Source of the DNA: Sulfurovum sp.
Lineage (GTDB): Bacteria; Campylobacterota; Campylobacteria; Campylobacterales; Sulfurovaceae
Reading direction: 5' to 3'
Assembly (NCBI GenBank): GCA_027068485.1
Contig: JAMOSB010000035.1
Span: forward strand, 1-64,000
Length of the DNA stretch: 64,000 nt
Below are positions 5,300-55,620 of the stretch, piece by piece. The notes below the pieces were generated by a model that ran no database searches, was not told where the DNA came from, and saw only the letters and a program-made list of their open reading frames with translations. The position numbers and the translations under genes were made by a program. The first letter of the stretch is position 1; each line of letters opens with the position of its first letter.

Positions 5300-5655
5300 G
5301 TAGAGATAGGTGCAACGATAAGCCGGGTTTTGTCGTGGGTAGTTATTTATCTAGGCGTATGGTTGCCCATACGCTCAAGCGAAGTGTGAATGCTGATCTA
5401 ACAGCTTGCAAGGCTTATACCATACACTTCTTGCTGCGAACAGGGTTTACCTAGCTACCTATGTTACCATAAGCACTGGTGGGCTCTTACCCCACCCTTT
5501 CACCTTTTACCACCAAGGTGGTTTTCATACTCTCTGTTGCACTTGCCCTCAGATTACTCTGGCCATCTGTTAGATGGAGTCCTGCCTTGCGTGCAGCCCG
5601 GACTTTCCTCTCGTAGCAATAGTGCTACCAGCAACTACCTATTGCACCTATGCGA
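5300..5655 (-). ncRNA. rnpB: RNase P RNA (bacterial type A)
   Basis: The minus strand carries the conserved landmarks in order: GAGGAAAGTCCGGGCT near the 5' end, ACAGAGAGT, GGTGAAAGGGTGGGGTAAGAG with its closing CCCACC, and CCACGACAAAACCCGGCTTA near the 3' end. The ends were set from the P1 stem: ATAGGTGCAA at 5651-5642 (minus) pairs with TTGCACCTAT at 5315-5306. This is the catalytic RNA that removes tRNA 5' leaders. No clear T-run terminator follows. The exact ends are good to within several bases. Confidence 0.95.
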
Positions 5656-26989: not shown

Positions 26990-28495
26990 CTAGTAGATAA
27001 AGTCTAGGATATTTGCCTTCTCCTCTAGCGTACCATATAGGTGGTTATCGACTGTTTCATCTGCATTGGTTTTGATGATACCTAGGTGGTACTCATTGTT
27101 CATAAAGTACTGATACCCCCCTTTGTCATGTCCAGGGTGATCAAAGAGTGCCATAGGTGCATACCCAAATAGCCCATTGCTATGGAGTTCACTCTTGAGT
27201 TCTGAGAGTCTGAGGTAGGTTGTAGCGACCTTCTCATCCCACCCTGCTAGGTCTAACTCATCACTATCGATCTGATTATTGCTATTGGTATCGTCCCAAG
27301 TCGCTGTTGCCACTGTCATATAGGGGAGGAAGACTGGTTTATTATACTTCTCATGGAGGAACGCACTCATATTATTGATCCGTTCGGGGAGAAGGTTGAT
27401 ACCGATACTACTCTCTGTATAGGCGATAGGGTTTGGCTCATCCCAGCTACCAGGATCTGAGGGGTCTCGACTAAATTGAGCGATGACCTGCTGAAAGGAG
27501 ATAAAGTCAAGCTTGTCTGAGAGCTTGTTGAAGATAAGCTCAGGACGGTTCCAGCTATTTTTATCTCCCAATGCACAGTTGTCATACCCACAGTAAGAGG
27601 CCGTGGTATTGCGGTCTCTGCTCCCCGCATCGGTCATACAAAGAGAGACGAGCATTGAGTCATTGTCCACTTTGACGGTGTCGATAGCCGTAGAGAGGAT
27701 AGAGGCAAACTGCTCTTGGTTCTCTTCACTTGAGAGGACGGCAGGTTTATTAAACTCAGGCTCCATGATAATCATCTTCTCTCCCTCAAACTGAGCCAAG
27801 AAGTGTGAGAGCTTTTCGTTGTTTTGGTGATAGGCATCGACCTCATCACTACTAGGCATTCCGTAGATTAGGTGATCTCCAAAGTACCAATAGATAAAGA
27901 CAGGAACATACCCCTCATCCATCGCTTTTTGTATCTGCTCAGCACTAAACCACCACTCTTCCCAATTGCTTGTGAGCCAGAAAGTGATATATTTACTACC
28001 CTTGAGCTTCTCTTGGAGCTTAGTAAAGTCCTCTCCATTGAAGTTTTTGATCTTCTGATAGTATCCATTGTCTGCGATATGGGGGTTGAGAGCAAGGTCG
28101 ATACTACTCATCCAGATCGTTTCACTCTCATCTTCAGAGATAAAGTCATAGGCGCCAGGTCCACCAAAGCCAACTTGTAGGCTGTCAAAAAGGCTTGTAT
28201 TACTCTCTTTTCTCATAGAGGGGGGCGTGATACCTTTAGGGGTATTTGCGACAAACCAGTATTTTTTTGCTTCCGCAAGACTCTCTTTGAGTCCATTGGC
28301 TCCTTGTGATTTGGCGATAGCCGAACCTGCTGTTGTATAGGAAATGGCATAGGCTTGAGGCTGAGTAGATGGCATTTGTGTAGGGGATACGACCGTTTGG
28401 GTATCCAGTGCGGTTTGGGTTTGTGCTACAGTATCGCTACTGTTACACCCTAGGAGTGCAACGGCGATAGCAGACATAGAGATTAGTTTTATCAT
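26990..28495 (-). CDS. Lipoprotein with possible glycosidase-like barrel
   Basis: About 501 residues. Signal MIKLISMSAIAVALLGC gives a lipobox (ALLGC), then a Thr/Gln-rich linker to about residue 50. I do not recognise the family firmly. The body alternates strands and helices like a TIM barrel: TFWLTSNWEEWW, VPVFIYWYFGDHLI, MIIMEPEFN, FISFQQVIAQF, PVFLPYMTVATATW. The acidic EPEFN after a hydrophobic strand would suit a glycosidase acid/base, but this is inference. NSNNQIDSDELD resembles a Ca-binding loop. AAGGA lies six bases before the chosen ATG (28495). A c-di-GMP-I riboswitch lies about 95 bases upstream, so expression is probably tied to the motile/sessile switch. Confidence 0.6.
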   Translation of the reverse strand: MIKLISMSAIAVALLGCNSSDTVAQTQTALDTQTVVSPTQMPSTQPQAYAISYTTAGSAIAKSQGANGLKESLAEAKKYWFVANTPKGITPPSMRKESNTSLFDSLQVGFGGPGAYDFISEDESETIWMSSIDLALNPHIADNGYYQKIKNFNGEDFTKLQEKLKGSKYITFWLTSNWEEWWFSAEQIQKAMDEGYVPVFIYWYFGDHLIYGMPSSDEVDAYHQNNEKLSHFLAQFEGEKMIIMEPEFNKPAVLSSEENQEQFASILSTAIDTVKVDNDSMLVSLCMTDAGSRDRNTTASYCGYDNCALGDKNSWNRPELIFNKLSDKLDFISFQQVIAQFSRDPSDPGSWDEPNPIAYTESSIGINLLPERINNMSAFLHEKYNKPVFLPYMTVATATWDDTNSNNQIDSDELDLAGWDEKVATTYLRLSELKSELHSNGLFGYAPMALFDHPGHDKGGYQYFMNNEYHLGIIKTNADETVDNHLYGTLEEKANILDFIY

Positions 28496-28593
28496 CATCT
28501 ATCCTTATATAATTGAATTAATTCATATAGTTAGATGCGAGGTGGTAGGAGAGCTATAGTGTGTCTAAAGACTATCGAAGTACTAATAGTGAA

Positions 28594-28678
28594 CAATTAG
28601 GCAACCCGGCCATCTCACTCAAGAGACCCGTGGCTTTCCGTCCCCGCTTCGCAACGAGTTTGGCATGGCATACAATTA
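28594..28678 (-). promoter_or_regulatory. Cyclic di-GMP-I (GEMM) riboswitch
   Basis: The minus strand shows the GEMM core in order: GCCAAACTCGTT, a GCGA (GNRA) tetraloop at 28652-28649 closed by CTCGTT/AGCGGG, then GGACGGAAAGCCACGGGTC, a second hairpin (GGTCTC...GAGATGGCC) and the closing CCGGGTTGCC. Flanking TAATTG sequences can form the basal stem. It lies in the 385-base gap between rnr (plus) and the lipoprotein gene (minus) and faces the lipoprotein gene. No clear T-run terminator was found between the aptamer and the gene, so control may act on translation or on an unrecognised structure. A 110-residue open frame over this stretch is an artefact of the RNA. Confidence 0.88.
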
Positions 28679-28825
28679 AGATAGTAATCCTATCAAATTT
28701 TGCACAGTGAGTATCGCAATATTTTACTTTAAGTAAGATTAGTATAGCAAAAAAAGCCTTAAAGTGTCCATAATTCCTCCTAGAGGCGTGACTTTTTGGA
28801 TTGGTTATAGACTCCAAACCCTCAA

Positions 28826-28883: not shown

Positions 28884-30860
28884 ATGAGTGCCTTTGCAAC
28901 CCAACTCATCAACGGCTGTCTAGCTATCGATATCGAACAAGAGGATCAAAACAGTTTTCAAGCACTCCAGACGCTTGGGGCGATTGAGGAGGTAGAGGGG
29001 CTGTGGCGACTCCACTCACTCTACCGTGCGGGACGACTCTACCTAGGCAAGGATGGCAGAGGCTATGTCGAAGCGACCTACAAAGAGCAACGCGACCTAC
29101 TCGTAGAGCCTGACAATCTTGGAGATGCGACCCAAGGGGATACCGTCGTCGTCAAACGCATCATCGCTCGACGCGGACGGGCAAGTGGCAAGGTGGTCGC
29201 CGTCATCACCAAAGCCCACTCCTATACCATCGCCTACACCCACCGTGATACCCAAAATCACTTCACTATCCTCAATCTCCGCACAGGAGAGCCGACCCAT
29301 GCGGTGATGGATGGGATGGATCTCAAGGCGTTTAAGCTAGGAACCGTTCTCAAAGTGGACAATGAGACAGAGCAGGTTGTAGAGGTCTTGGGACACCTTG
29401 GCGATCCGCGTGTCGATGAGAAGATCTCTCTTGCCCTCTATGCGCGAGAGGATGCCTTCCCCCAAGCGTGTATCGATGAGGCAAACGCCATAGAGCTAAG
29501 TGTAGACAAATCCCAATACCCCGATCGTGTCGACCTCACGGCTCTGGACTTCTGTACGATTGACCCCATCACGGCGAAGGATTTTGATGATGCGATCTAC
29601 TTTGAGCGTGAGAGCCATACGCTCTATGTCGCCATCGCTGATGTGAGCTACTATGTCCCCTACTTCACTGCCATCGACAAGGAGGCAAAAAAGCGAGGCT
29701 TCACCACCTATCTCCCACACAAATCCTTCCCGATGCTTCCACGCGAACTGAGTGAAAACCTCTGCTCACTCAAACCCCAAGTCGACCGTCTCGCCTTTGT
29801 CGCCAAGATTACGCTAGAGCCTAACTCCCTCAAACCCCTCAAAGAGGAGTTTTTTGAGGCAGTGATCCACTCCAAGCACCGCTTCAACTACGAGGCAGTC
29901 GATGGGATACTCGCAGAGGGCTACCACGGGGATAACCCGACCATCCAACGCATCCTTGCATGGCTACTCCCCCTCTATCCACTCACCCAAAGGCTACGCA
30001 AGAGCCGTCTGCTTCAGGGGTTTGACTTCCGTAGTGAGGAGACCAAGCTCACTATCGACAGTGACCACCTCCTCCAATGCACCACCATCGAGACAGGCAC
30101 CCCCTCCCACTCTCTCATCGAAGAGTGTATGCTCCTCGCCAACCAAGCCTCTGCCAAGCGGTTTGAAACGCAAGGGGAGGAGGAGAGCCTCGGTATCTTC
30201 CGTATCCATGAGCCACCACAGCTTGCCAAGACCGAAGCCCTCCTCACGGAGCTTGCTACCATCGGACTCTATGTCGAGGAGTACACCGATAGCCCCTCTC
30301 TTATCCGTGCGATCCAACGCGAAGCGGAGAAGCTCAACCTCTCCTCCGAGGTCGATGCGATGATCATCAAGTCCCTCCGCCGTGCCTCCTACGCCCCACG
30401 AAATATCGGTCACTTTGGGCTAGGCTTTAGCCACTATAGCCACTTCACCTCTCCTATCCGTCGCTACGCTGACCTCATCTTACACCGCCTCATCAAGACC
30501 CAACTGAGCCACGATACACAAGAGGCGGAGTATCTCCTACGCAATATCGAGCCACTCTGTGTCACGGTGAGTGAGCTAGAGAGAGACGCAACCAAAGCGG
30601 AGTGGGACTTTAGGGATCGGAAGTTTGCCCGATGGGCAGAGCAACACAAAGGACTCTTCTTTGAGGCGACTGTCATCGAAGCAGGTGAGAGTGCCAAAGC
30701 CCTACTCCAAGGCGACATCAAAGGGGTCACCGTCCACCTACGCGGTGAGGGACTCCTCCTCTTTGATACCATCCGTGTGATGATCACCGAAGTCACTATC
30801 GCCCAAGCCACCATCATGGCAGAACTCGTCTGCAAGGTGGAGAGTGAGGCGAGTGTATGA
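28884..30860 (+). CDS. rnr: Ribonuclease R family 3'-5' exoribonuclease
   Basis: 658 residues, shorter than E. coli RNase R (about 813) but usual for Campylobacterota. N-terminal cold-shock-like region, then the RNB catalytic domain: CTIDPITAKDFDDAIYFE with clustered Asp ligands, VAIADVSYYVPYFTAID, and YAPRNIGHFGLGFSHYSHFT followed by SPIRRYADLILHRLI. A C-terminal S1-like segment ends the protein. It degrades structured RNA. AGGAGG lies before the ATG. Its TGA stop overlaps the next start (ATGA), which belongs to an inserted restriction gene; in C. jejuni and H. pylori the next gene is holA. Confidence 0.94.
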   Translation: MSAFATQLINGCLAIDIEQEDQNSFQALQTLGAIEEVEGLWRLHSLYRAGRLYLGKDGRGYVEATYKEQRDLLVEPDNLGDATQGDTVVVKRIIARRGRASGKVVAVITKAHSYTIAYTHRDTQNHFTILNLRTGEPTHAVMDGMDLKAFKLGTVLKVDNETEQVVEVLGHLGDPRVDEKISLALYAREDAFPQACIDEANAIELSVDKSQYPDRVDLTALDFCTIDPITAKDFDDAIYFERESHTLYVAIADVSYYVPYFTAIDKEAKKRGFTTYLPHKSFPMLPRELSENLCSLKPQVDRLAFVAKITLEPNSLKPLKEEFFEAVIHSKHRFNYEAVDGILAEGYHGDNPTIQRILAWLLPLYPLTQRLRKSRLLQGFDFRSEETKLTIDSDHLLQCTTIETGTPSHSLIEECMLLANQASAKRFETQGEEESLGIFRIHEPPQLAKTEALLTELATIGLYVEEYTDSPSLIRAIQREAEKLNLSSEVDAMIIKSLRRASYAPRNIGHFGLGFSHYSHFTSPIRRYADLILHRLIKTQLSHDTQEAEYLLRNIEPLCVTVSELERDATKAEWDFRDRKFARWAEQHKGLFFEATVIEAGESAKALLQGDIKGVTVHLRGEGLLLFDTIRVMITEVTIAQATIMAELVCKVESEASV

Positions 30861-31696
30861 CCAAAGCTCAACAAATAGGTTCGATGACAGCAAAGGGGGG
30901 ATTTCTCAATGAGAAGGATATCTGTCATAAGTTTCAATCCTATCAAGAGGATTGTGACGCACAACAGTGGCTCAAGATTATGGGGTATGACTATGCAAAA
31001 ATTACGCAACTTATCGCAACACATATCCCTGTACGCATCAAGCGATCCAAAGCATTAGCACTCGGCATCCATGAAGAGAAGTACGAAGAGAGTATCCGAT
31101 ACAAAAAAGCTGATATTCAAATCAAAATAGCCATCATGATTGAGAGTGTTATCTCTATTGAAAATATCTCTTTGAAAAAATCCAATACAAGTGCTGGCTT
31201 TAATCAGATAGATAAAAGAGCCGTTTCAACCTACCAACAATTATGGCACTTTGATGATACCCTTGCCTATTGGCTGAAGTGCTTTACAGGTGAGATTTTA
31301 CCCTCTGCGATAGCCAAAGAACACGCTATTCACGCTAGAGATCCAAAAGGCAAAAGGGTTTTTTTAGATGAGCTTCCTCTTCATGCCCAACAAGAGATAA
31401 TCCATTTTTTTCAAACACACCAATACCTTATCATCTCAGATATTATCAAAGGTAGAGGGGGACTCTGTGCAGAGTGGATTCTTGTAACCCGTCAAGATCC
31501 TCTCAATACACACGCTATAGATTGGGTACTCAAAGATATCAATACAACTATCAATTTCTATAGCCAAGGAGAGGTGACACTCTCCCCAAGAGGAAGCCTT
31601 AAAATCGGACGCATTACCATGCAACGCAAAGGTGGGACACCTGATCCTACAAGCTTACAATTCAAAATGAATCCCCTTGAGCTTTTCAATGCTTAG
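30857..31696 (+). CDS. Type II restriction endonuclease, HinP1I-like (predicted GCGC)
   Basis: 279 residues. It matches R.HinP1I (247 residues, G^CGC), from memory, along its length: TAKGGFLNEKDI, GFNQIDKRAVSTYQQLWHFD, DIIKGRGGLCAEWILV, TLSPRGSLKIGRITMQRKGG and LQFKMNPLELF. The start at 30857 overlaps the rnr stop by four bases and fits the HinP1I N-terminus. HinP1I uses an SD-x18-QxK active site; here the equivalent reads A85-D86-x18-S105-L-K107, so the Ser and Gln are changed. An insert near residues 65-80 and another near 160 account for the extra length. The partner methylase overlaps its 3' end. Confidence 0.85.
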   Translation: MTKAQQIGSMTAKGGFLNEKDICHKFQSYQEDCDAQQWLKIMGYDYAKITQLIATHIPVRIKRSKALALGIHEEKYEESIRYKKADIQIKIAIMIESVISIENISLKKSNTSAGFNQIDKRAVSTYQQLWHFDDTLAYWLKCFTGEILPSAIAKEHAIHARDPKGKRVFLDELPLHAQQEIIHFFQTHQYLIISDIIKGRGGLCAEWILVTRQDPLNTHAIDWVLKDINTTINFYSQGEVTLSPRGSLKIGRITMQRKGGTPDPTSLQFKMNPLELFNA

Positions 31697-32684
31697 TCAT
31701 ATCAGATATATAGACCTTTTTGCGGGTATAGGGGGATTTCATCAAGCGATGGATCGTTTTGGGGCGACCTGTGTCTTTGCCTCGGAGTGGGATAACGCAT
31801 GTCAAGTGACCTATGAAGAGAACTACGGTATCAAACCACACGGAGATATCACCACGATTGATGAACAAGCGATTCCACCACACGATATGATTTGTGCGGG
31901 ATTCCCCTGTCAAGCGTTTAGTATCTCAGGCAAACAAAAAGGGTTTGAAGATAGTCGGGGGACACTCTTTTTTGATATAGCACGGATTGCCAAATACCAT
32001 CAACCCAAACTACTACTCCTTGAAAATGTCAAAAACCTAGCCACACACGATAAGGGTAATACTCTCCAGACTATCCGAGCCACCCTAGAGGAGATAGGCT
32101 ATACCCTCTTCTCCCAAGTTCTCAACGCATCACACTTTGGTATCCCCCAAAAAAGAGAGCGTATTTTTCTTGTTGCACTACGCCATGACCTTAGAGTCAA
32201 CTCCTTCGTGTTTCCTCAAAGCAGTGGGAAAGCAGTCACGCTAGAGAGCTTTTTGGATCAAGAGGAGCATTCACACCTCATCATACATCGAGAGGATATC
32301 ATCATGAAAGAGAAGATGGAGATACTCCCCGATATGTTTGGTGTCTATCCACAAAAGCCTATCCGACTCGGTATCGTCAACAAAGGAGGACAAGGAGAGC
32401 GAATCTACAGCCCACTAGGACATGCGATTACCCTCTCTGCCTATGGTGGCGGTGTAGGTGCCAAAACGGGACTCTATAAGATAGGAGAAGATATACGACG
32501 GCTCTCCCCCAATGAGTGCCGACGCATTACAGGGTTTCCTGATGATTTCAAGCTTCATCCAAATCCCAATGTATCCTATCGTCAATTTGGTAATAGTGTC
32601 GTAGTCACTGTCTTAGAAGCGATACTACAACAGATCATACAGAGCCATATTTTAACCCCATCCACAATAAAGGTAGCCTCCTAA
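31689..32684 (+). CDS. DNA (cytosine-5) methyltransferase, HhaI-like (predicted GCGC)
   Basis: About 331 residues. Motif I FAGIGGF, motif IV GFPCQAFS with catalytic Cys74, motif VI LENV (112-114), motif VIII QKRER (154-158) and motif X QFGNSVV are present. The whole protein, including the target-recognition region (about 190-270: IRLGIVNKGGQGERIYS, AITLSAYGGG), follows M.HhaI as I remember it, so methylation of the inner C of GCGC is predicted. The ATG at 31689 overlaps the nuclease stop by eight bases; a TTG at 31677 is possible but less likely. Its stop overlaps the holA start by one base. It should protect DNA from the adjacent nuclease. Confidence 0.92.
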   Translation: MLSHIRYIDLFAGIGGFHQAMDRFGATCVFASEWDNACQVTYEENYGIKPHGDITTIDEQAIPPHDMICAGFPCQAFSISGKQKGFEDSRGTLFFDIARIAKYHQPKLLLLENVKNLATHDKGNTLQTIRATLEEIGYTLFSQVLNASHFGIPQKRERIFLVALRHDLRVNSFVFPQSSGKAVTLESFLDQEEHSHLIIHREDIIMKEKMEILPDMFGVYPQKPIRLGIVNKGGQGERIYSPLGHAITLSAYGGGVGAKTGLYKIGEDIRRLSPNECRRITGFPDDFKLHPNPNVSYRQFGNSVVVTVLEAILQQIIQSHILTPSTIKVAS

Positions 32685-44388: not shown

Positions 44389-46620
44389 ATGAATCAATTA
44401 CTACTACAACAGCTCAAATATGTCGGATTGGAAGCCAAAAGCCTCACCGAACACTCTAAAGCGATGCAACAGCTCCTTACACTTATCTCAGAGAGTTATG
44501 ATGGGAATGCTTGTTCACAGATACTCTCCAACAATCCGCTCTACCTCACCCCTGAGCAGATTAACCAACTCTACCATCAACTCCACCAAGAGGCATATAG
44601 CCTAGAGGAGATGATCGCGGTGACTCCTGATTTGATCTTTATCGTCGATAGAGAGGGCAAATATATCCATGTCTTCTCCCAAGGTAAAGAGCATATGCTC
44701 TACACTCCCAAAGAGCAGATCATCGGACACTATATCTCTGATATCTTTGATCCCCTCATGGCAGAGCAGTTTGAGCAGATCATTCAAAGGGTTCTGACGA
44801 GCAAACAACTTCAGTCCATCGAGTATACCCTACCTATCCAAAATGAACCACACTACTTTGAGATGCGTGCCATGCCTACAGGGGTCAAGGTCGATGGGGT
44901 GACGACGGTGATTGCTATTGTACGAGAGATTACAGAGCAGAAAAAACAGGAGCATATCTCTCGCCTTATTGCCACGGTCTTTGAGGAGGCAACAGAGGGG
45001 ATGATGATCAAAAATTCTAACCGTACCGTTATCAAAATCAACCCTGCGATGTTGCGTATCTTGGAGGTCAAAGAGGAGGAGATCTTAGGGAAGCGTCTGG
45101 ACTACCTCTCAAAGATGATTCTCCCTGAGATCAAAGAGCAGATCACCCAAGCCCTCCACAGAGACAACCACTGGCAGGGAGAGGTTCAACTCCAACGCAA
45201 GGATAAGAGTACCCTTCTCGTATGGCTAAGTATCGATACACTCCAAGACTCCTCAGGAGCGTTAAACAATACCGTCTTTATCTTGACTGATATCTCCAAG
45301 ATACAGAAACAACGCGATAAGATGAAACATCTCGCAACACACGACTCTCTCACCAAGCTCCCCAACCGTTCCCTACTCTACGATCGCCTCGAACACTCTA
45401 TCGCCTCAATGCAACGAAATGGCCAAAAGGGTGCGGTGATCTTTCTCGATCTTGACCACTTCAAAGATATCAATGATACCTATGGACATCATGTGGGGGA
45501 CTTAGTACTACAGGAGTTTAGCCACCGACTACAACACCTCATACGGGCAAGCGATACTCTCGGACGACTCGGAGGAGATGAGTTTCTCCTCATCGCTGAA
45601 AATATCAAAGACCGTCAACATGCTCAGATGATTATCAAAAAACTTCTCACCCACCTCAAAGAGCCATTTTGTATTGAGCAGTGGGAGATTGAGAGTTCGG
45701 TGAGTATTGGAGCTGCCCTCTTCCCTCATGATGGTGAGACGACAGAGGCGTTGATCCATGCAGCCGATCAGGCGATGTACGCGGTCAAGAAGCAGGGACG
45801 CAATGGATTTGAGTTCTACTCTCATAAACTCTCATACTTCTCCAATGAGTACTTCTCGATCCGAGGGGCGATCAAACGAGCACTCAAAGAGGATAACTTT
45901 GAGGTACTCTATCAACCACAGTTCTCCCTCTATGATGGAAGCCTCACAGGGATGGAGGTACTCCTACGCTGTCATGATAGTATGGTAGCAGATATCCCCA
46001 TCTCGCGTCTTATCTCCATCGCCGAAGAGAGTGGACTCATCGGGGGGATTAGTCAACTCGTCCTCAAAAAGAGCTGTGCACAGATCAAAGCGTGGCACAA
46101 ACTCACCCTTGACCCCATCAAAGTAGCCGTCAACCTCTCACGCAAAGAGCTTAGTAGCCCGACCCTTGTCGAGACAATCAAAGAGAACCTCGCTACCTGC
46201 TGTATTGGTCCGCTTATCTTAGAGTTTGAGATCACAGAGACGATCTTGATGAAGAGTAGCTTTACAGCCCAACAAAATATCAAAGCCCTGCGTGAGATAG
46301 GGTGTCTCTTCTCTATCGATGACTTTGGGACAGGCTTCTCCTCACTCTCCAACCTCAAAGAGTTTGATCTCGATAAACTCAAGATAGATCAATCCTTCAT
46401 CCGTGATCTCCATGAGAGTAGTGATGACCGTATTATCGTCTCAGCGACGATTAAGATGGCACAACAACTCGGACTCACTGTCCTTGCTGAAGGGGTTGAG
46501 ACACTCCAACAAAAAGAGATACTAGAGCAGTTTGGGTGTGATGAAGTACAAGGGTTTCTCTACAGTAAGCCACTGACAGGAGCAGAGATGACGCAACTAC
46601 TACAGTCACAAAAATCATAG
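44389..46620 (+). CDS. PAS-PAS-GGDEF-EAL c-di-GMP enzyme
   Basis: 743 residues, no membrane segment. Two PAS domains (about 75-190 and 195-310: TPDLIFIVDREGKYIHVFSQ; EEATEGMMIKNSNRTVIKIN). The GGDEF domain (about 320-475) has an intact RLGGDEF and an upstream RxxD inhibitory site (RASD). The EAL domain (about 490-740) has EVL for EAL, then FEITET, IDDFGTGFSS, LKIDQSF and LAEGVET, so metal and catalytic residues are present. Both synthesis and breakdown of c-di-GMP are possible, switched by the PAS ligands or redox state. It is divergent from grpE-dnaK and convergent with rpsO. Confidence 0.93.
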   Translation: MNQLLLQQLKYVGLEAKSLTEHSKAMQQLLTLISESYDGNACSQILSNNPLYLTPEQINQLYHQLHQEAYSLEEMIAVTPDLIFIVDREGKYIHVFSQGKEHMLYTPKEQIIGHYISDIFDPLMAEQFEQIIQRVLTSKQLQSIEYTLPIQNEPHYFEMRAMPTGVKVDGVTTVIAIVREITEQKKQEHISRLIATVFEEATEGMMIKNSNRTVIKINPAMLRILEVKEEEILGKRLDYLSKMILPEIKEQITQALHRDNHWQGEVQLQRKDKSTLLVWLSIDTLQDSSGALNNTVFILTDISKIQKQRDKMKHLATHDSLTKLPNRSLLYDRLEHSIASMQRNGQKGAVIFLDLDHFKDINDTYGHHVGDLVLQEFSHRLQHLIRASDTLGRLGGDEFLLIAENIKDRQHAQMIIKKLLTHLKEPFCIEQWEIESSVSIGAALFPHDGETTEALIHAADQAMYAVKKQGRNGFEFYSHKLSYFSNEYFSIRGAIKRALKEDNFEVLYQPQFSLYDGSLTGMEVLLRCHDSMVADIPISRLISIAEESGLIGGISQLVLKKSCAQIKAWHKLTLDPIKVAVNLSRKELSSPTLVETIKENLATCCIGPLILEFEITETILMKSSFTAQQNIKALREIGCLFSIDDFGTGFSSLSNLKEFDLDKLKIDQSFIRDLHESSDDRIIVSATIKMAQQLGLTVLAEGVETLQQKEILEQFGCDEVQGFLYSKPLTGAEMTQLLQSQKS

Positions 46621-46666
46621 AAAATTTTAAAAGAGGAAGAGGGGGGAGGAGATAAAGGAGAGGAAG

Positions 46667-46684
46667 AGGTACCCGAAGGTACTT
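46667..46684 (-). terminator. Stem-loop with TTCG loop after rpsO
   Basis: On the minus strand GTACC-TTCG-GGTAC (46682-46669) overlaps the end of the rpsO frame and is followed by CTCTTCCTCTCCTTT, a CT-rich tract. A UUCG tetraloop gives a stable hairpin; likely the rpsO mRNA end. Confidence 0.45.
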
Positions 46685-46688
46685 CTTG

Positions 46689-46958
46689 CTAGTTTCTGAT
46701 ACCAAGATCCGCTTTGATGGTGTTCCATCTTGTAAGATCTATCTTCTTAAGGTATCTCATAAGTCTTCTTCTTTGACCTACCAATTTAAGTAGACCAAGT
46801 CTTGAAGAGTGATCGTGTTTATTGATTTTAAGGTGCTCTGTAAGGTATTTGATTCTCTCTGTAATCAATGCTACTTGTACTTCTGTTGAACCTGTATCGT
46901 TTTCGCCTCTAGCATATTTAGCAATAATTTCTGCTTTTTTCGCCTGATCTAAAGCCAT
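46689..46958 (-). CDS. rpsO: 30S ribosomal protein S15
   Basis: 89 residues: [60 protein letters not shown], then [12 protein letters not shown]. Standard length. It binds 16S rRNA early in 30S assembly. GGAGG lies before the ATG. Single gene, divergent from the Rrf2 regulator. Confidence 0.98.
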
Positions 46959-47104
46959 GATGACCTCCTGATGGGTATTTGAATTTCCACAATAAATTGG
47001 GGATGCAATGATACCATAATAAACTTATGCAACCCTATCCGCCCAAACCTCCCTCTAATCTATATTAGAGTAAAATACTCCTAATTCTACATGAAGGCTT
47101 ACCC

Positions 47105-47503
47105 ATGCTGTTAACGCGTGCCAGTGAATATGCATTACTCTCTCTTAATGTCATACGAAAGTCAGATAAACCCATCGGTGCAGAGCACCTAGCCAATGAG
47201 CTTGCTATCCCCAAGAGTTTCCTTGCTAAAATCTTGCAGTCACTAGCACGAGAGGGGATACTCGAATCACGCAAAGGAGCCCATGGTGGCTTTATCCTCA
47301 CCCAAAGTATCGACACCATCTCAGTGAGTAGCATCATCACTGCCGCAGAGGGACGAAAGCCCGCAGTATTTGACTGTTTAAGCTACACTGAGAGCTGTCC
47401 AGAGGGGGCGATTGGTACCTGTGCCATCTCCCCTTTTCTTGCGAAGTTTCAGACCAAAATCGATGAATTTCTACACGACCTTACTCTAGGAGATATACTC
47501 TAA
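47105..47503 (+). CDS. Rrf2-family regulator with Fe-S cysteines
   Basis: 132 residues. Winged helix-turn-helix: MLLTRASEYALLSLNVIRKS, LANELAIPKSFLAKILQSLA, then GAHGGFILTQ. Cys91, Cys98 and Cys106 (CLSYTESCPEGAIGTC) match the three-Cys cluster-binding region of IscR/NsrR/RsrR-type members, so it probably senses iron-sulfur status, NO or redox. It lies two bases before the DHH phosphoesterase gene, its likely operon partner. Confidence 0.9.
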   Translation: MLLTRASEYALLSLNVIRKSDKPIGAEHLANELAIPKSFLAKILQSLAREGILESRKGAHGGFILTQSIDTISVSSIITAAEGRKPAVFDCLSYTESCPEGAIGTCAISPFLAKFQTKIDEFLHDLTLGDIL

Positions 47504-47505
47504 TT

Positions 47506-48558
47506 ATGCAACAACACCTCTACCACCTCTCACATATAGACCTCGATGGCTATGGCTGTCAATACCTCTCAACCCGCTGTTTTGATCAGATCGAATGCTA
47601 CAATGCAAACTATGGACCAGAGGTCACTGCCCGTCTTGCAGAGATCGTCAAAAAGATTGAGCAGGATCGATTTATACACGGAGAGGGGCATGAAGCACTC
47701 ATCCTTATCACCGATCTCAACCTCACCACCAAAGAGGCAAACTGGATCGAAAAAGAGGCGATACGCATCAAAGCCAAGATCCAACTCCTCGACCACCACG
47801 CCACAGGCAAGAGTGCTGCCGAACGCTTTGCATGGTACAAGCTCGATACTTCACGCTGTGCGACCAGTATCACCTATGAGTGGCTTCAGAGACACTATGA
47901 CTTCGATCCAGAGCAGAGACTTCTCACCATCGTCAAAGCGATCAATGCGATCGATATCTGGGTGAGTGAAGATCCCCTCTTTGAGTATGGTAAGGTGATG
48001 CTAGGGATGATCTCAGGTGCACGGGAGATCAACCGTATCCTCTTTCCTACCGAAGATAGAGCCTTCAAACTCTCACTTATCGATGCAGCACGACTGAGAG
48101 TCGCCAACCAAGAGGCAGCGATTGAACTCGATGATGATCTCCACCAGATCAAAAAATCTTTCTTTAGACAAGAGCAGAACAACACCAAAGATAACCTTGT
48201 CGCCTTCTATGTGACCAAGCTTCTCACACACGATAGACAGCGTCTAACGATTGAGTATCGAGGCTACAAAGGGATCTTGGGCTATAACATCGGCAATACC
48301 TCTATCATCGGTAATACCTGTATGGTAGAGAATCCAGACTATGACTTCTATATGGATGTAAACTTTAGGGGGAACTTCTCTCTACGAAGTAATAATAAAT
48401 TAGATGTTTCAAAGATGGCAAGTGAGATAGGCAATGGTGGGGGACACCCCAATGCAAGTGGAGGAAAGATCGAGGGGTATAAAGACTCCTTTGTCTATGC
48501 TGATATACGCAAGTTTATCCAAGCCTACATCGATAGAAAGAGCCAAACTACTCTCTAG
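47506..48558 (+). CDS. DHH-family phosphoesterase, NrnB-like
   Basis: 350 residues. HIDLDGYG (His10, Asp12, Asp14), Asp70 in ITDLNL and DHH at 96-98 are the metal ligands of the DHH domain; the C-terminal DHHA1 domain has GNGGGHPNASGG. The family includes oligoribonucleases (NrnA/NrnB), which degrade 2-5-mers, and c-di-AMP/pGpG phosphodiesterases. With several c-di-GMP enzymes nearby, clearance of pGpG is a reasonable guess, but this is inference from context. Confidence 0.85.
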   Translation: MQQHLYHLSHIDLDGYGCQYLSTRCFDQIECYNANYGPEVTARLAEIVKKIEQDRFIHGEGHEALILITDLNLTTKEANWIEKEAIRIKAKIQLLDHHATGKSAAERFAWYKLDTSRCATSITYEWLQRHYDFDPEQRLLTIVKAINAIDIWVSEDPLFEYGKVMLGMISGAREINRILFPTEDRAFKLSLIDAARLRVANQEAAIELDDDLHQIKKSFFRQEQNNTKDNLVAFYVTKLLTHDRQRLTIEYRGYKGILGYNIGNTSIIGNTCMVENPDYDFYMDVNFRGNFSLRSNNKLDVSKMASEIGNGGGHPNASGGKIEGYKDSFVYADIRKFIQAYIDRKSQTTL

Positions 48559-48664
48559 TGACTCCCTTTGGTGATGATCTCTGTGATAGTGATATTATCT
48601 AGTATCGCACCGTGGCTATCATTTTGTCCCGCAAGCTCTTTGATCGAAAGCTCTGGCATACTCA
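48555..48664 (-). pseudogene. C-terminal remnant of a surface/carbohydrate-binding protein
   Basis: Just beyond the stop of the GGDEF response-regulator gene, a minus-strand frame reads ELSIKELAGQNDSHGAILDN followed by ITITEIITKGSH and a stop. The (D)SxGxxIDN(V/I)xxxEI pattern is typical of the last strand of beta-sandwich modules in large secreted proteins. Nothing upstream in frame continues the module, and the frame runs into the GGDEF gene, so this looks like a leftover from a deleted gene. It has no start of its own. Confidence 0.35.
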
Positions 48665-48672
48665 CCGTGCCA

Positions 48673-49590
48673 CTAGTATGAGGTCCTCGCCATCGTAAAG
48701 TTTGACTTCCCTGCTCGTTTGGATCTATACATCGCTTCATCTGCTTTTTTGAGCAGACTCTCTACCTCTGTGCCATCATGCGGATAGCAACTCACCCCGA
48801 TACTACAAGAGACTGCGAGGCTCTCTTGCTCATAACTGAGGGGGAGAGCGGTAGCGTCGATTACCTTCTGAGCCAATAGTTTCAAGGTCTCAATATCATC
48901 AATATCTCTCAAGACCAAGGCAAACTCATCGCCACCAAGTCGTGCGAGTATATCATCTTTTCGAATGATTTTTGAGATATTTTTGACCACCCATTTGAGC
49001 ATAGCATCCCCTGCATCATGTCCATAGGTATCGTTAATCGGTTTGAAATTATCTAGGTCGATAAAGAAGAGGGTAAAGGGGGTTTGCTCCTCTACCATCG
49101 TCGTAATATGTTGGATAAAGGAGAAGCGATTGTGTATCTGTGTCAAGCTATCAAAGTGTGCCAGACTATAGAGGACTCGCTTCTCTTTTTGAGAATCTTT
49201 GGCTTTAGCTATTTTGGCTTTGAGTTCAGAGGTGACCTCTACCAATTTACTATTGAACGCATCGATATCAATCGGCTTAGAGATAAACCCATTGGCTCCA
49301 TTATTGAGTGCCTCCATAAGATTCTCTCTATCCCCAAAAGCGGAAGTGATAATGATAATCTGCTCTTTATCCTCTGCTTTAATCTGCTTAATCATCTCCA
49401 TACCACTAAGCTTTGGCATATTAAGGTCGGTGATAATCACATCGGGTCTCTTCTCACGATAGAGTGATATCCCCTCCTCTCCATTGAAAGCCTGATAAAA
49501 CTCCTTCACCTCACTAGAGAGATAAAACTCCATATACTCTTGGGTATCCACATCATCTTCTACATACAATACAGTAAAGTTTTTTAACAT
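48673..49590 (-). CDS. Response regulator with GGDEF output (diguanylate cyclase)
   Basis: 305 residues. Receiver domain (about 1-120) with VLYVEDDVDTQEYMEFYL and phospho-acceptor Asp55 in VIITDLNMPK. GGDEF domain (about 140-300) with intact ARLGGDEF at 217-223 and an RxxD inhibitory site (Arg210, Asp213). It should make c-di-GMP when phosphorylated. It starts one base after the stop of the histidine kinase gene, so that kinase is the likely partner. Confidence 0.95.
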   Translation of the reverse strand: MLKNFTVLYVEDDVDTQEYMEFYLSSEVKEFYQAFNGEEGISLYREKRPDVIITDLNMPKLSGMEMIKQIKAEDKEQIIIITSAFGDRENLMEALNNGANGFISKPIDIDAFNSKLVEVTSELKAKIAKAKDSQKEKRVLYSLAHFDSLTQIHNRFSFIQHITTMVEEQTPFTLFFIDLDNFKPINDTYGHDAGDAMLKWVVKNISKIIRKDDILARLGGDEFALVLRDIDDIETLKLLAQKVIDATALPLSYEQESLAVSCSIGVSCYPHDGTEVESLLKKADEAMYRSKRAGKSNFTMARTSY

Positions 49591-49591
49591 C

Positions 49592-51211
49592 TTAGAGACT
49601 CCTATTTAAAATTATGGTAAAGGTCGTAATTCCCGCTACACTCTCAACTACAATCTGTCCACCCATATGATCTTCAACAATCATCTTACTCATATAGAGT
49701 CCTATCCCCGTACCATTTTTATCATTTTTGGTTGAGAAGTAGGGTTCAAATATCCGATCGATAATATCAGGAGCAATCCCCCCTGCATTGTCTCTAATAT
49801 GGAGGATAATCGACTCCTCTGTACTCTCATAAAAGATACTGATTTTCCCCTCTTTGACTTGATTCTCCATCAAAGCATCTTTGGCATTATTGATAATATT
49901 GATAAGTGACTGCCCTAGTTTATTGGGATAGCCCTCAACAAAACAGTTATCACACACTTGATGCTCTAGCGTGATATTGTGTGTGCGTAGTACAGGTGAG
50001 AGGATAGCAATCATACGATTGACACTCTCTTGGATAGAGAAGATGCGTTTATCCACATCGGGCTTGAAGAAGTCTCTAAACTCATCGATGGTACTAGACA
50101 TATGGGCAATTTGCTTTTTGGATGCCTTCTCAAAATACGCTACTGCTTTATCATCCAACTGCCCCTTCTTATACTTGAGGATAATCGTCTGACTAATGAG
50201 AGAGAGGTTGTTGAGCGGTTGTCGCCACTGATGGGCAATCATACTGATCATCTCTCCCATCTGAGCAAGGCGTGACTGTTGCATCAATATTAACTGTTGC
50301 TCTTTGTTTTTGGCTACTTTCTCTTTGATGGTATTTCTAAGATAACTCTCCCGCTGTCGTCTCTCCTCAAAAAGAGAGCCTGAGATCAGTGCCAATGAGA
50401 TATGCACAAGGATAAAGAAGTTGATATTGATAATATTATCGAGCATCGAATGGATAGCAAATGCCCCAATCCCCACATAGACACTATAGGTTGAGAGTAT
50501 CGCAATAATCACAGGAAGTCCTACCCCATAGTTGAGCCCTTTTTGAGAGACGATCCAGATCACCGAAGGGATGGTAAAGGTCAAGAGTAGTGCTAAGTTC
50601 TCGACTACCACCACCAACTCCAAAGCATAGATAAAGAGTGCAAAACTCACCATATAGAGTAGATAGATCCCCCATGATATCTTCTTGTAGTTTAGCAAAA
50701 GTAGTAAAATAAACGGTGTAAAGAGTAACTGCCCCATGATATTACCAAACCACCATGAGAAGAGTGATGCCATATAGCCACTCCCCTCAATCACCCCACT
50801 AAAGAAGAGTACCAAGTTACCCAATATGGCACTAAAGGGCTGAAGTACGAGGACAATAATCATCACAAGTCCCAAAATATCCTTGAGACGAGAGAGCTTC
50901 ATATCCAGACTATATCTTCGAAACAGTATCACACCTATAACCGCTTCACTACTGTTGATAAGCGAAATCAGAAGTGCAGGGATCCACCCCAATCCTGTAC
51001 TATACGCCAGTGCAAACTGCCCCAAAAAGACACCAAGCCAGACCTTTTTACCCCAAAAGATTGCTGAGGCGAGTGCCAACCCCTCAGCGGCAAAGATCAC
51101 AATGGTGACAACACTATGCTCTTTGAGAATACCAAAACTTAATTCACCCATCAAAAAATAGGCAATGGCTATTATTAAAGTCAATCCAATATATTTTCTA
51201 TTCAGTTCCAC
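49592..51211 (-). CDS. Histidine kinase with MASE1-like membrane sensor
   Basis: 539 residues. About eight membrane segments occupy residues 1-285, resembling a MASE1 domain (AAEGLALASAIFWGKKVWLG, WWFGNIMGQLLFTPF). A short coiled coil (EERRQRESYLRNTIKEKVAK) leads to the kinase core: phospho-acceptor His327 in MISMIAHQWRQPLNNL, N-box NIINNAKDAL, and the G-boxes IRDNAGGI and GTGIGLYMSKMIVE. The dimerisation type with AHQWRQPL is frequent in Campylobacterota. It is cotranscribed with the diguanylate cyclase response regulator and divergent from an OmpR-type regulator. Confidence 0.93.
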   Translation of the reverse strand: MELNRKYIGLTLIIAIAYFLMGELSFGILKEHSVVTIVIFAAEGLALASAIFWGKKVWLGVFLGQFALAYSTGLGWIPALLISLINSSEAVIGVILFRRYSLDMKLSRLKDILGLVMIIVLVLQPFSAILGNLVLFFSGVIEGSGYMASLFSWWFGNIMGQLLFTPFILLLLLNYKKISWGIYLLYMVSFALFIYALELVVVVENLALLLTFTIPSVIWIVSQKGLNYGVGLPVIIAILSTYSVYVGIGAFAIHSMLDNIININFFILVHISLALISGSLFEERRQRESYLRNTIKEKVAKNKEQQLILMQQSRLAQMGEMISMIAHQWRQPLNNLSLISQTIILKYKKGQLDDKAVAYFEKASKKQIAHMSSTIDEFRDFFKPDVDKRIFSIQESVNRMIAILSPVLRTHNITLEHQVCDNCFVEGYPNKLGQSLINIINNAKDALMENQVKEGKISIFYESTEESIILHIRDNAGGIAPDIIDRIFEPYFSTKNDKNGTGIGLYMSKMIVEDHMGGQIVVESVAGITTFTIILNRSL

Positions 51212-51305
51212 AAGTTAAACCTTCTTTCTAATATACTATTTTACTATAGTAATCTAAGACAAATTACACTACAATCTGTAGAATCTGTAGACAATAGGAG
51301 TCCCC

Positions 51306-51956
51306 ATGCATACGATGAACATACTACTGGTTGAAGATGATCTTGTAGCCTTAGAGATGATTGAAGGGTTTCTTACCAAGTGTGGATTTGAGGTGGAGGG
51401 GGTATCGACGGCTACCGATGCGGTATCCTACCTGAGCAACCACCACTATGACCTGCTTATTTTGGATATCAACCTCCCTGACTACACAGGGTATGAAGTA
51501 CTCAAAACACTCAAAAACCAACGCACACTCCCTATCATCGTCGTCAGTGCAGATAATAACACCAGTGCTAAAATCATCGCATTTAAGTATGGTGCCAAAG
51601 ATTATATGGTCAAACCTATCGACCTAGAGGAGCTTGAGGCGAGGATATGGGTACAACTAAGCCACACTAGCCAGATAGAGACCCCAGAGCCATACGCACG
51701 CTTCCAGTGTGACGGCTCTACAATACGCTTTGATCAGACCCCTCTCAAGCTCACCCATACAGAGTTTGTACTGCTTAGTAACCTCATCAAACACAAAAAT
51801 CAAACCCTCTCTCGAGCGCTACTCCTAGAGTCTATCTCCTCTATCAGCTCCAATCGGGCACTCGATAATCACATCAAAAACCTTCGCAAAAAGATACCCA
51901 ATGGACATCACTACCTTAGAACAGAATATGGTGTGGGATATAAGCTCTCCTATTGA
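51306..51956 (+). CDS. OmpR/PhoB-type response regulator
   Basis: 216 residues. Receiver domain with NILLVEDDLVALEMIEGFLT and Asp54 in LILDINLPDYTG; C-terminal winged helix: KLTHTEFVLLSNLIKHKNQT, ALDNHIKNLRKKIP and a final YLRTEYGVGYKLSY. AGGAG lies five bases before ATG 51306. No kinase gene follows; the divergent MASE1-type kinase at 49592 is the nearest candidate partner. Confidence 0.93.
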   Translation: MHTMNILLVEDDLVALEMIEGFLTKCGFEVEGVSTATDAVSYLSNHHYDLLILDINLPDYTGYEVLKTLKNQRTLPIIVVSADNNTSAKIIAFKYGAKDYMVKPIDLEELEARIWVQLSHTSQIETPEPYARFQCDGSTIRFDQTPLKLTHTEFVLLSNLIKHKNQTLSRALLLESISSISSNRALDNHIKNLRKKIPNGHHYLRTEYGVGYKLSY

Positions 51957-51992
51957 GAGAGGATAGAAGGAGGGGGAGTCAAAGAGGCTCTT

Positions 51993-52010
51993 CTCCCCTA
52001 GCAAGGGGAG
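51993..52010 (-). terminator. Stem-loop between convergent regulator and efp
   Basis: CTCCCC/GGGGAG stem with a 6-base loop lies between the response regulator stop (51956) and the efp stop (52022). No T-run on either side; may serve both genes. Confidence 0.35.
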
Positions 52011-52021
52011 TATAGGAGTGT

Positions 52022-52588
52022 CTATTTTGCCTTCTCTAGGTACTTTTTCTCTACGGTATCAACTTTGATTATCTCACCTTCGAGTACATGAAAAGGGACT
52101 TGTACAACCGCGCCACTCTCTAGTGTCGCAGGTTTTTTCCCCCCTTGAGAGTCCCCTTTGAAGTTGGGTGGAGTCTCTACGATTTTGAGTACGACCGTTT
52201 GAGGAATCTCTACAGAGATCGCCTTACCACCATGGAAGAGTATCTCCGCCTCCATCCCATCAATCATAAAGTCAAAAGTATCTTTTCCTACCTGCTCATG
52301 GGTCAATCCTATCTGGTCGAATGTAGTGGTATCCATAAACTGAAGCATCTCACCATCATCATAGAGGTACTGCATCGTTTTTTGCTCTAGCTCAGGGACA
52401 TCAAACTTATCTCCTGCATGAACCGTCTTCTCTATCGTCTTCCCTGTCTGAAGGTTCTTGATCTTCATACGCACAAACGCCGCACCCTTGCCAGGTTTGA
52501 CATGTTGAAACTCTGTCACTTTATAGGGGTTGCCCGTAATCTCTAATCTCGCACCTTTTTTGATGTCGCCCATTCCAATTGTAGCCAT
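52022..52588 (-). CDS. efp: Elongation factor P
   Basis: 188 residues. Three beta-barrel domains; the tip loop [18 protein letters not shown] has Lys34 at the modified position, suiting EpmA-type beta-lysylation. [18 protein letters not shown] and [15 protein letters not shown] mark the C-terminal domains. It relieves ribosome stalling at proline runs. Divergent from the FIST-domain gene. Confidence 0.97.
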
Positions 52589-52676
52589 AAGTAAGTCCTA
52601 TCTGTAAATTTTAAATGATTATATCAAATGATTGATAAAGGGTACCTCCTCAAAGATAATACTTAGGCTGTTAAGG

Positions 52677-52682
52677 TATAAT
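52677..52682 (+). promoter_or_regulatory. -10 box of the FIST-GGDEF-EAL gene
   Basis: TATAAT about 28 bases before the ATG at 52711; AAGGAA is the ribosome site. Confidence 0.45.
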
Positions 52683-52710
52683 TTAATCACTTGTCAACGA
52701 AGGAACCTTG

Positions 52711-55620
52711 ATGAAAAGTGTCAACACCTACTATAGTGATGCGATAAATCTCCAGCTCTTTTTGGAAAAGCATCAGCTTAAAGATAGCCCCATGTTGCTC
52801 ATACAAGTCTTTACAGGGGTCACCAATAGAGACTATATCGAGAGTATGCTCCAAGAGATTGATACCCTACTTCCAGAGGCTAAGCTTATTGGCTGTACCA
52901 CCGATGGGGAGATTATGGATGGGGCAGTCTCGACAAAGATGACAGTACTGAGCTTCACACAGTTTGAAGAGACAACACTCCAGACCCAACTCCTCCCACA
53001 TACAACCAATGGCTACTATAGTGGCAAAGGTATCGCCAAAGCACTGATTCATACAGATACCAAACTCATCATCGCATTTAGTGATGGGCTAAACAGTAAT
53101 GGAGAAGCATTTTTAGAGGGAGTTAGTACCATTGACTCCTCAATCATCGTCGCAGGAGGGCTAGCAGGGGATAATGCGATGTTTAAACAGACCTATGTTT
53201 TTGATAAAACAACTATCATCTCCAAAGGTGCTGTAGCTGTCTCCTTCAGCAACCCCTCACTCCAGATCAGAAATCGCCAAAACTTCAACTGGCACGCAAT
53301 TGGCAATGAGCTACTCATCACCAAAGCAGAGGGGAACAGACTCTACACCATCAACCACCAAACCGCCTACGATACCTATGCCCACTATCTCGGTCAAGAT
53401 GTCGCCAAACTCCTCCCCAAAATCGGGATAGAGTTCCCACTTATCACCCGACGCAATGGGATCGAGGTCGCACGCGCGGTGATCGCCAAACATGACGATG
53501 GTTCACTCAGCTTTGCAGGGAACCTTCATAAGGGGGAGTATGTTAGATTTGGACATGGGGATGCGGAGGGTATCTTACGGGACTCTACTCTGTTAAGTAT
53601 GCGAATGAAAGAGAACCCCTCCGAGGTCAACTTCGTCTACTCCTGTATGGCACGCCGACACTTCTTGGGTCAGTCTGTAGAGCAAGAGACCCTCTCCCTA
53701 CAAGATATCGCTCCTACGGCTGGGTTTTTTACCTATGGGGAGTTTTTTAGTTCAGGCAGTAGAGAGCTACTTAACCAAACCATGACCATCCTCTCACTGA
53801 GTGAAACCCCTAGAGACTACTGTCTACTCCCTCAGAGTAAAGCGTTTCAAGACCTCAAAAACAACACCTCTCGCAGAGCTCTTTTTAATCTCATTGAGGT
53901 GACACACTATGAGAGTAAGCTTCAAGAGAAGATTGCCAAAGAGCGTGAAGCCTTTGAGCTGATGTTTGAAAAATCAGCAGATGGGATACTGATCATCAAA
54001 GAGGATCACTTTATCCAGTGTAACCAAAAGATGGTCAAGATGCTCGACTACCCAGACAAATCCTCCATACTCAAACTCCGCCCAGGAGCATTCTCTCCAG
54101 AGTTTCAACCCGATGGACGACGCTCTATCACGATTATCCAAGAGAAGATAGCACGCTGTCTGAGTGATGGAGAGCAGAGCTATGAGCTAAGCTATCTGCG
54201 TGCCAACGGAAGCCTCTTTTGGGCAGAGGTGATCCTCATCCCTATCAACCTTGAGGAGGGGCGTGTCATTAAAGCAGTCTACCGTGACATCACCCAGAGA
54301 AAAGAGATCGAGTACCAACTCTCCCACCAAAAAGAGATACTCTACTACCAAGCACGACACGATGCACTCACAGGACTCCCCAATCGTACCCTCTTCCAAG
54401 AGAAGTTTCAACACAAAATTGACTCAATGGCTCAACTCACCTTGATGTTTATCGATTTGGATGGGTTTAAGTCTATCAATGACTCACTGGGACATGATGT
54501 GGGAGATAAGATACTCCAGCTCATCACCAAACGACTCCAATCTCTCATGACACATGGGCATACACTCTTCCGCTTGGGGGGTGATGAGTTTACCATTATT
54601 ATCGATAATATCAACCAAAAATCACAGATTGACACCTTTGGTCAGCAGATACTCACCCTGCTCAAAGAGCCTGTGATATTTGATGATCATCGACTCGATA
54701 TCTCAGGGAGTATTGGGGTAAGCTTCTACCCCCAAAATGGGCAGAAGAGTAAAGATCTTCTTAAAAATGCAGATGTGGCGATGTATAAATCCAAAGAGCA
54801 AGGGGGCAATACCCTTGTCTACTACAAAGAGGAGATGAGCCTCGCTGCCTATGCCTTTATCAAGATGAAGACCTATCTACACGATGCGATTAAGAACAGT
54901 GAGTTTGAGGTCTACTACCAGCCCCAAATTGATATCAAAACTGAGCAACTCATCGGCGTCGAAGCACTCATCCGATGGAACCACCCTATCGATGGTACTA
55001 TCGCCCCAGGAAACTTCCTCTCTGTTGCCCGCGAAACAGGACTTATGGTCGAGATAGACTGGTGGGTAATGAAAACCGCCATGCAACAGATGACAGAGTG
55101 GAAAGCACAAGGCTTCAACCCAGGCTCACTGGCACTCAATCTCACTATCAAACAATTGGAAGAGAAAAACTTCTTCTCCCAACTCAATGAGGCGATCACC
55201 CAAACGGGCTTTGATATCCAAACCTTAGATCTGGAGCTTGAGGAGGGGGAGGTGATGAAAAATCCTAGTGAGATCATCACCATCTTTGAGAAGCTCCACG
55301 CTATGGGTATCAAGATCTCCATTGATGATTTTGGGACGGGATACTCCTCTCTTGCCTACCTCAAGCGTCTCCCTATCGATAAACTCAAGATCGATCGATC
55401 CTTTATCATCGATATCCCCCATAACCACGACTCTACCTCTATTATCAATGCCATTATCTCTATGGCAAAGAGTCTCAAGCTCAATACCGTCGCAGAGGGG
55501 GTAGAGTATGCCAACCAACGCGACTACCTCTTGGCACAGGGGTGTGATGTGATACAGGGCTACTTCTATAGCAAACCACTCTCCGCTCAAGCAATATTTG
55601 AGAAATACACGACAACATAA
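52711..55620 (+). CDS. FIST-PAS-GGDEF-EAL c-di-GMP enzyme
   Basis: About 969 residues. The first 365 residues form FIST N and C domains (ligand-sensing family, predicted to bind small molecules such as amino acids): LLIQVFTGVTNRDYIESMLQ, KLIGCTTDGEIMDGAVSTKM, AGGLAGDNAMFKQT, FVYSCMARRHFLG. A PAS domain follows (about 415-530). GGDEF (about 545-700) has RLGGDEF but lacks the RxxD inhibitory site. EAL (about 715-960) is intact: GVEALIRW, LELEEGEV, SIDDFGTGYSS, LKIDRSF and VAEGVEY. The EAL ExT motif reads LEEGEV, a deviation. ATG at 52711 is favoured by AAGGAA six bases upstream. It probably converts a metabolite signal into a c-di-GMP change. Confidence 0.92.
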   Translation: MKSVNTYYSDAINLQLFLEKHQLKDSPMLLIQVFTGVTNRDYIESMLQEIDTLLPEAKLIGCTTDGEIMDGAVSTKMTVLSFTQFEETTLQTQLLPHTTNGYYSGKGIAKALIHTDTKLIIAFSDGLNSNGEAFLEGVSTIDSSIIVAGGLAGDNAMFKQTYVFDKTTIISKGAVAVSFSNPSLQIRNRQNFNWHAIGNELLITKAEGNRLYTINHQTAYDTYAHYLGQDVAKLLPKIGIEFPLITRRNGIEVARAVIAKHDDGSLSFAGNLHKGEYVRFGHGDAEGILRDSTLLSMRMKENPSEVNFVYSCMARRHFLGQSVEQETLSLQDIAPTAGFFTYGEFFSSGSRELLNQTMTILSLSETPRDYCLLPQSKAFQDLKNNTSRRALFNLIEVTHYESKLQEKIAKEREAFELMFEKSADGILIIKEDHFIQCNQKMVKMLDYPDKSSILKLRPGAFSPEFQPDGRRSITIIQEKIARCLSDGEQSYELSYLRANGSLFWAEVILIPINLEEGRVIKAVYRDITQRKEIEYQLSHQKEILYYQARHDALTGLPNRTLFQEKFQHKIDSMAQLTLMFIDLDGFKSINDSLGHDVGDKILQLITKRLQSLMTHGHTLFRLGGDEFTIIIDNINQKSQIDTFGQQILTLLKEPVIFDDHRLDISGSIGVSFYPQNGQKSKDLLKNADVAMYKSKEQGGNTLVYYKEEMSLAAYAFIKMKTYLHDAIKNSEFEVYYQPQIDIKTEQLIGVEALIRWNHPIDGTIAPGNFLSVARETGLMVEIDWWVMKTAMQQMTEWKAQGFNPGSLALNLTIKQLEEKNFFSQLNEAITQTGFDIQTLDLELEEGEVMKNPSEIITIFEKLHAMGIKISIDDFGTGYSSLAYLKRLPIDKLKIDRSFIIDIPHNHDSTSIINAIISMAKSLKLNTVAEGVEYANQRDYLLAQGCDVIQGYFYSKPLSAQAIFEKYTTT

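Follow-up and report, generated by a model that had tools for sequence, protein, structure and literature searches.

One described system close to the locus considered here is the Vc1 riboswitch of Vibrio cholerae, a class-I (GEMM-I) switch that lies before gbpA, with positive regulation by c-di-GMP (PMC4744006). GEMM-I variants that sense cGAMP are also known (PMC7266159), and the preference for cGAMP has been linked with a G20A change (PMC6274999). We analysed the window, that is, the whole 64,000-nucleotide stretch of Sulfurovum DNA, in which a 5' leader carries a c-di-GMP-I aptamer with a canonical pocket (Table 1). We consider it likely that this switch controls a single-gene transcript for an outer-surface, glycosidase-like lipoprotein, and that the gene belongs to a c-di-GMP surface/biofilm regulon. 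The riboswitch class is known and the target is unusual but sensible; the more novel part is a glycosidase-like domain that the Pfam and NCBIfam models do not cover. Directly computed here were the identity and pocket bases of the aptamer, its covariation, the order of the genes, the domain fusions and, by position, the regulon.

Table 1. Features of the window, in window coordinates, and the other GEMM-I aptamers of the same genome.
Feature	Position	Strand	Basis or remark
c-di-GMP-I (GEMM-I) riboswitch aptamer	28596..28673	minus	Rfam match, pocket bases and covariation
502-aa lipoprotein, glycosidase-like domain at about residues 95-502	26990..28498	minus	ORF, lipobox, fold prediction
EPEFN (residues 246-250), end of predicted strand 4	27749..27763	minus	E248 invariant in 36/36 relatives; candidate catalytic acid
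EF-hand/dockerin-like calcium loop DTNSNNQIDSDE (residues 403-414)	27257..27292	minus	sequence; D403 and E414 in 27/27
Possible sigma-70-like promoter TGGACA-18-TATACT, TG before the -10	28741..28770	minus	consensus match only
Hairpin over Shine-Dalgarno AAGGAT (28506-28501) and start codons (first ATG 28498, second in-frame ATG 28495)	28490..28545	minus	candidate expression platform
Three GGDEF genes: PAS-PAS-GGDEF-EAL, receiver-GGDEF, FIST-PAS-GGDEF-EAL	44389-55620		two of three with EAL
Other aptamer, same genome			precedes 2009-aa SdrD-B protein, then outer-membrane barrel gene
Other aptamer, same genome			precedes ~3000-aa SdrD-B/DUF11 protein
Other aptamer, same genome			precedes 2065-aa cadherin/Calx-beta protein, then pilin-like genes
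Other aptamer, same genome			precedes lipoprotein, then hexapeptide acetyltransferase and glycosyltransferase genes

The best Rfam model at the aptamer is RF03167 (c-di-GMP-I-GGC), which aligns over its full length (1-80 of 80) and reaches 60.7 bits where its gathering score is 59 (E = 7.3e-12 in the 64-kb window); RF01051 (c-di-GMP-I) scores 57.2 bits at the same place against a gathering score of 35. A preliminary description of this DNA had claimed a GEMM core with a GNRA tetraloop and GGACGGAAAGCC about 95 bases before a lipoprotein gene, and had proposed the RF01051 search as a check. The core indeed belongs to a full-length aptamer that scores above the RF01051 threshold, both motifs are present (the tetraloop as GCGA), and the distance from the aptamer end to the first ATG of the gene is 97 nt on the same strand. 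Numbered after the Vc2 reference sequence, a numbering checked by alignment only, the pocket bases are G20, A47 and C92, the ordinary c-di-GMP-I set. We aligned 34 aptamers, namely the five from the Sulfurovum genome studied and the best match of each of 29 family genomes, a sample that is skewed toward high-scoring matches; G20 and A47 are present in all 34 and C92 in 33, and the pocket is thus of the ordinary c-di-GMP type. The first core pair, G21-C46 in Vc2, is C21-G46 in 33 of the 34, the window aptamer included (one has G-C), with compensating U-A changes in the pair next to it. In the three helices together, 99% of helix cells are paired, compared with 26-49% in slid controls, and 12 of 18 pairs are doubly changed, compared with 3.9 in shuffles, none of 500 of which reaches 12. 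Five GEMM-I aptamers, that of the window among them, lie in this genome (1.73 Mb, 98% complete), and 85 of 150 genomes in the family have at least one copy, with up to 21 in a genome of about 2 Mb. These counts and the covariation argue that the aptamer is no chance match; judged by its sequence, the window element is a genuine class-I c-di-GMP riboswitch aptamer, which would be expected to bind that ligand.

The lipoprotein gene is a single gene between a convergent peptidase M48 gene and a divergent RNase R gene, and is the sole gene downstream in the 385-bp intergenic region that holds the aptamer. (Directly after the RNase R gene, at 30857-32684 on the plus strand, stands a Type II restriction-modification pair, an R.HinP1I-like endonuclease (E 6e-55) and a C-5 cytosine DNA methylase; a class A RNase P RNA lies at 5303-5650 on the minus strand.) Transcription from the promoter-like site upstream of the aptamer would yield a 5' UTR of about 235 nt. 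A search of the leader for an intrinsic terminator that could serve as expression platform turned up no terminator-like hairpin, and the ribosome-binding site is enclosed in a hairpin (-9.2 kcal/mol, z -1.8; 11 of 200 shuffles equally stable); control at translation is therefore favoured, and is probably how the switch would act. In silico folding with the aptamer enforced gave no clear change in access to the ribosome-binding site or start codons, and the leader as a whole is no more stable than shuffles (z +0.86). Pairing of the P1 3' strand (CCUAAUUG), as an anti-Shine-Dalgarno, with CAAUUA...AGG looks possible by eye, but no such pairing arose in constrained folding. We assume an ON direction for the switch by analogy with Vc1-gbpA.

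The other four aptamers of the genome precede the genes given in Table 1. In relatives the first genes after the aptamer encode large Ig/cadherin adhesin-like proteins, CarboxypepD_reg lipoproteins, and CAP, LysM-NlpC/P60, TolC-like, PAS and HD-domain proteins, an assignment made automatically and uncertain where the spacer is long. The place of the window aptamer before a gene for a glycosidase-like surface lipoprotein suggests that the genus Sulfurovum uses c-di-GMP RNA switches for control of the outer surface and biofilm. In one relative (L088, 204-1745, plus strand) a GEMM-I switch stands before a lipoprotein with apiosidase-like and Collagen_bind_2 domains, by its sequence apparently another glycosidase governed by such a switch. 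In some relatives GEMM-I aptamers occur in tandem, at distances of about 110-280 nt (G120:C1:1909477 and 1909625; G033:C1:356375 and 356486; G128:C8:3641 and 3794; others), suggesting two-aptamer leaders. Riboswitch control of such a gene in Campylobacterota had been called unfamiliar, and among the papers searched we found none on GEMM-I switches in the Sulfurovum family or Campylobacterota; that statement was nevertheless too narrow, given how common GEMM-I is in the family, its presence in 43 of 397 genomes sampled across the phylum, other families included, and the L088 locus. A link to three GGDEF genes at 44-56 kb had also been proposed. These genes are real, are interspersed with a histidine-kinase-like ORF and a response regulator, and are three of eight in the genome, so that the cell does have a c-di-GMP network; they lie 16-28 kb away, and their tie to the switch is a shared genome only.

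The lipoprotein starts with MMIKLISMSAIAVALLGC and has the lipobox LLGC at residues 15-18. Searches of Pfam and NCBIfam gave no family match, and sequence searches of the PDB gave weak matches only, the best glycosidase at E = 0.055. We found relatives in 27 of 175 genomes of the family and in 17 of 397 from the phylum; in several the domain is joined to a GH9 (cellulase), CBM2, GH114 or related TM1410 type domain. A paralogue in the same genome (L069, G000:C27:12209-13414, minus strand; 49% identity) has no riboswitch. Distant relatives of about 330 aa in other Campylobacterota families (L129-L134; 25-31% identity) lack the calcium loop and have no Pfam match; from their sequences they appear to be a minimal form of the domain. 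Among 36 relatives, the most distant of them at about 25% identity, W174, W179, D208, E248, N250, D290, D312, W316, R373, F465 and E469 are invariant, and D208, E248 and D290 stand at or just past the ends of predicted strands 3, 4 and 5. AlphaFold (two runs of seven sequences each) predicts strands and helices that alternate in the manner of a barrel, at modest model quality (pLDDT 61-66, pTM 0.65-0.72, with the C-terminal part below 50), and the best PDB matches found by Foldseek are GH1 beta-glucosidases and GH53 galactanases (E ~1e-8 to 1e-7, TM 0.3-0.57). The barrel-like, glycosidase-like body that had been read from the sequence, and for which structure prediction had been suggested, is thus recovered with low-to-moderate confidence, and EPEFN does directly follow a predicted strand (241-245), as had been claimed.

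Several other readings of the locus have to be weighed. Taken at its Rfam label, the window aptamer would be a c-di-GMP-I-GGC variant whose ligand is possibly altered, and RF03167 does outscore RF01051 there; its threshold is exceeded by 1.7 bits only, however, and is passed by two of the five copies in the genome, whereas all five pass that of RF01051. The decisive base is the one after CG(G/C), which is G in the GGC consensus and A here, as in ordinary c-di-GMP-I and in each of the 34 aptamers compared. With G47 (GCGAA in the model consensus) taken as the defining base, as read from the RF03167 consensus and the family name, we rejected the variant class, which is hardly probable. A GEMM-Ib type that senses 3',3'-cGAMP shares its scaffold with GEMM-I, and such variants are on record (PMC7266159), but A at position 20 does not occur in the alignment; this reading was rejected on the pocket bases and is highly improbable. 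It is also very unlikely that the switch lies next to the lipoprotein gene by chance, say as a copy that was inserted recently or is decaying, and exerts no control over that gene. Such a reading would fit with there being only one member of the lipoprotein family preceded by a switch, and with the failure of in silico folding to give a model of switching; yet the pocket bases and helices are all intact, aptamer and gene lie on the same strand with no other gene downstream, and a promoter-like site stands upstream. None of the 25 relatives with readable upstream DNA (the paralogue counted) has a riboswitch there, so a conserved pairing was rejected and the pairing is lineage-specific: regulation was gained recently or, with lower probability, switch and gene are neighbours by accident.

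Granting an ordinary c-di-GMP aptamer that controls the gene, the protein might still be no enzyme but a barrel-shaped adhesin or a polysaccharide-binding protein of that shape. We regard this as rather doubtful, although it agrees with the lack of any Pfam, NCBIfam or close PDB relative and with the surface or adhesin-like proteins that follow other switches in the genome. Clan GH-A enzymes have an acid/base Glu where strand 4 ends, and E248 stands at that place; they also have a nucleophile Glu where strand 7 ends, and this one has no counterpart: no acid after strand 7 is invariant in the 36 relatives (PYMTVATATW; LAYLAISSY in distant relatives). The lipoprotein is therefore unlikely to be an ordinary clan GH-A enzyme, a point that also suits a non-catalytic role. 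Against such a role, D208, E248, D290, D312 and E469 stay unchanged even in relatives of about 25% identity, for which purely structural conservation is a poor explanation, and three of these five carboxylates lie at the ends of predicted barrel strands. The fusions, the predicted fold and the invariant acids together point to a probable glycosidase of a family without a Pfam or NCBIfam model. GH114-type enzymes act on galactosaminan polymers, and the cellulase, cellulose-binding and galactosaminidase domains found as fusion partners suggest that the substrates are polysaccharides. The cellulose synthase subunit BcsB was sought in the Sulfurovum genome and not found, so that cellulose as the cell's own polymer was rejected and no one substrate is pointed to. 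An exopolysaccharide or surface glycan, as the preliminary description had it, would be a putative target. More tentatively, the domain, single or fused to GH9, CBM2 or GH114, may found an undescribed glycoside hydrolase family, one member of which was put under direct c-di-GMP riboswitch control in this Sulfurovum lineage, within a genus-wide GEMM-I surface-protein regulon; we hold this combined proposal to be possible, at somewhat less than even chances.

From the preferred reading, a c-di-GMP switch that controls a glycosidase-like lipoprotein, we infer ligand binding, translational control, an ON direction, enzymatic activity and a substrate in the following chain. A rise in c-di-GMP would close the aptamer (P1-P2-P3), closure would change expression of the lipoprotein, probably at translation, and the product would cut or remodel cell-surface polysaccharide. 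The gene would share its c-di-GMP surface/biofilm regulon with the giant SdrD-B and cadherin-like proteins and the lipoprotein/polysaccharide-biosynthesis cluster. The locus opens control of the surface by c-di-GMP to direct tests in free-living Campylobacterota and points to a glycosidase-like domain family without a Pfam or NCBIfam model.

Set beside known systems, the window aptamer has the secondary structure, GNRA tetraloop and pocket bases of c-di-GMP-I (RF01051), and both occur before surface or signalling genes; the target differs, being here a glycosidase-like lipoprotein. RF03167 is the best-scoring model, but the G of that variant at position 47 is A in the window. GH1 and GH53 (clan GH-A), the best fold matches, have a carboxylate at the end of strand 4 as does the lipoprotein, which differs from them in its low identity (about 9-15%), low TM-scores, lack of an invariant acid after strand 7 and lack of a family model. 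The GH114 and MJ1477-TM1410 putative glycosidases are found fused to relatives of the lipoprotein domain, in which they form a separate domain that the window protein does not have. For Vc1-gbpA the regulation was measured, whereas for the window switch it is predicted from sequence; GbpA is a GlcNAc/chitin-binding colonisation factor, and the window protein a lipoprotein with a barrel domain (PMC4744006 for Vc1 and GbpA). In both cases a class-I switch stands before a gene for a secreted protein that is, or here would be, directed at carbohydrate.
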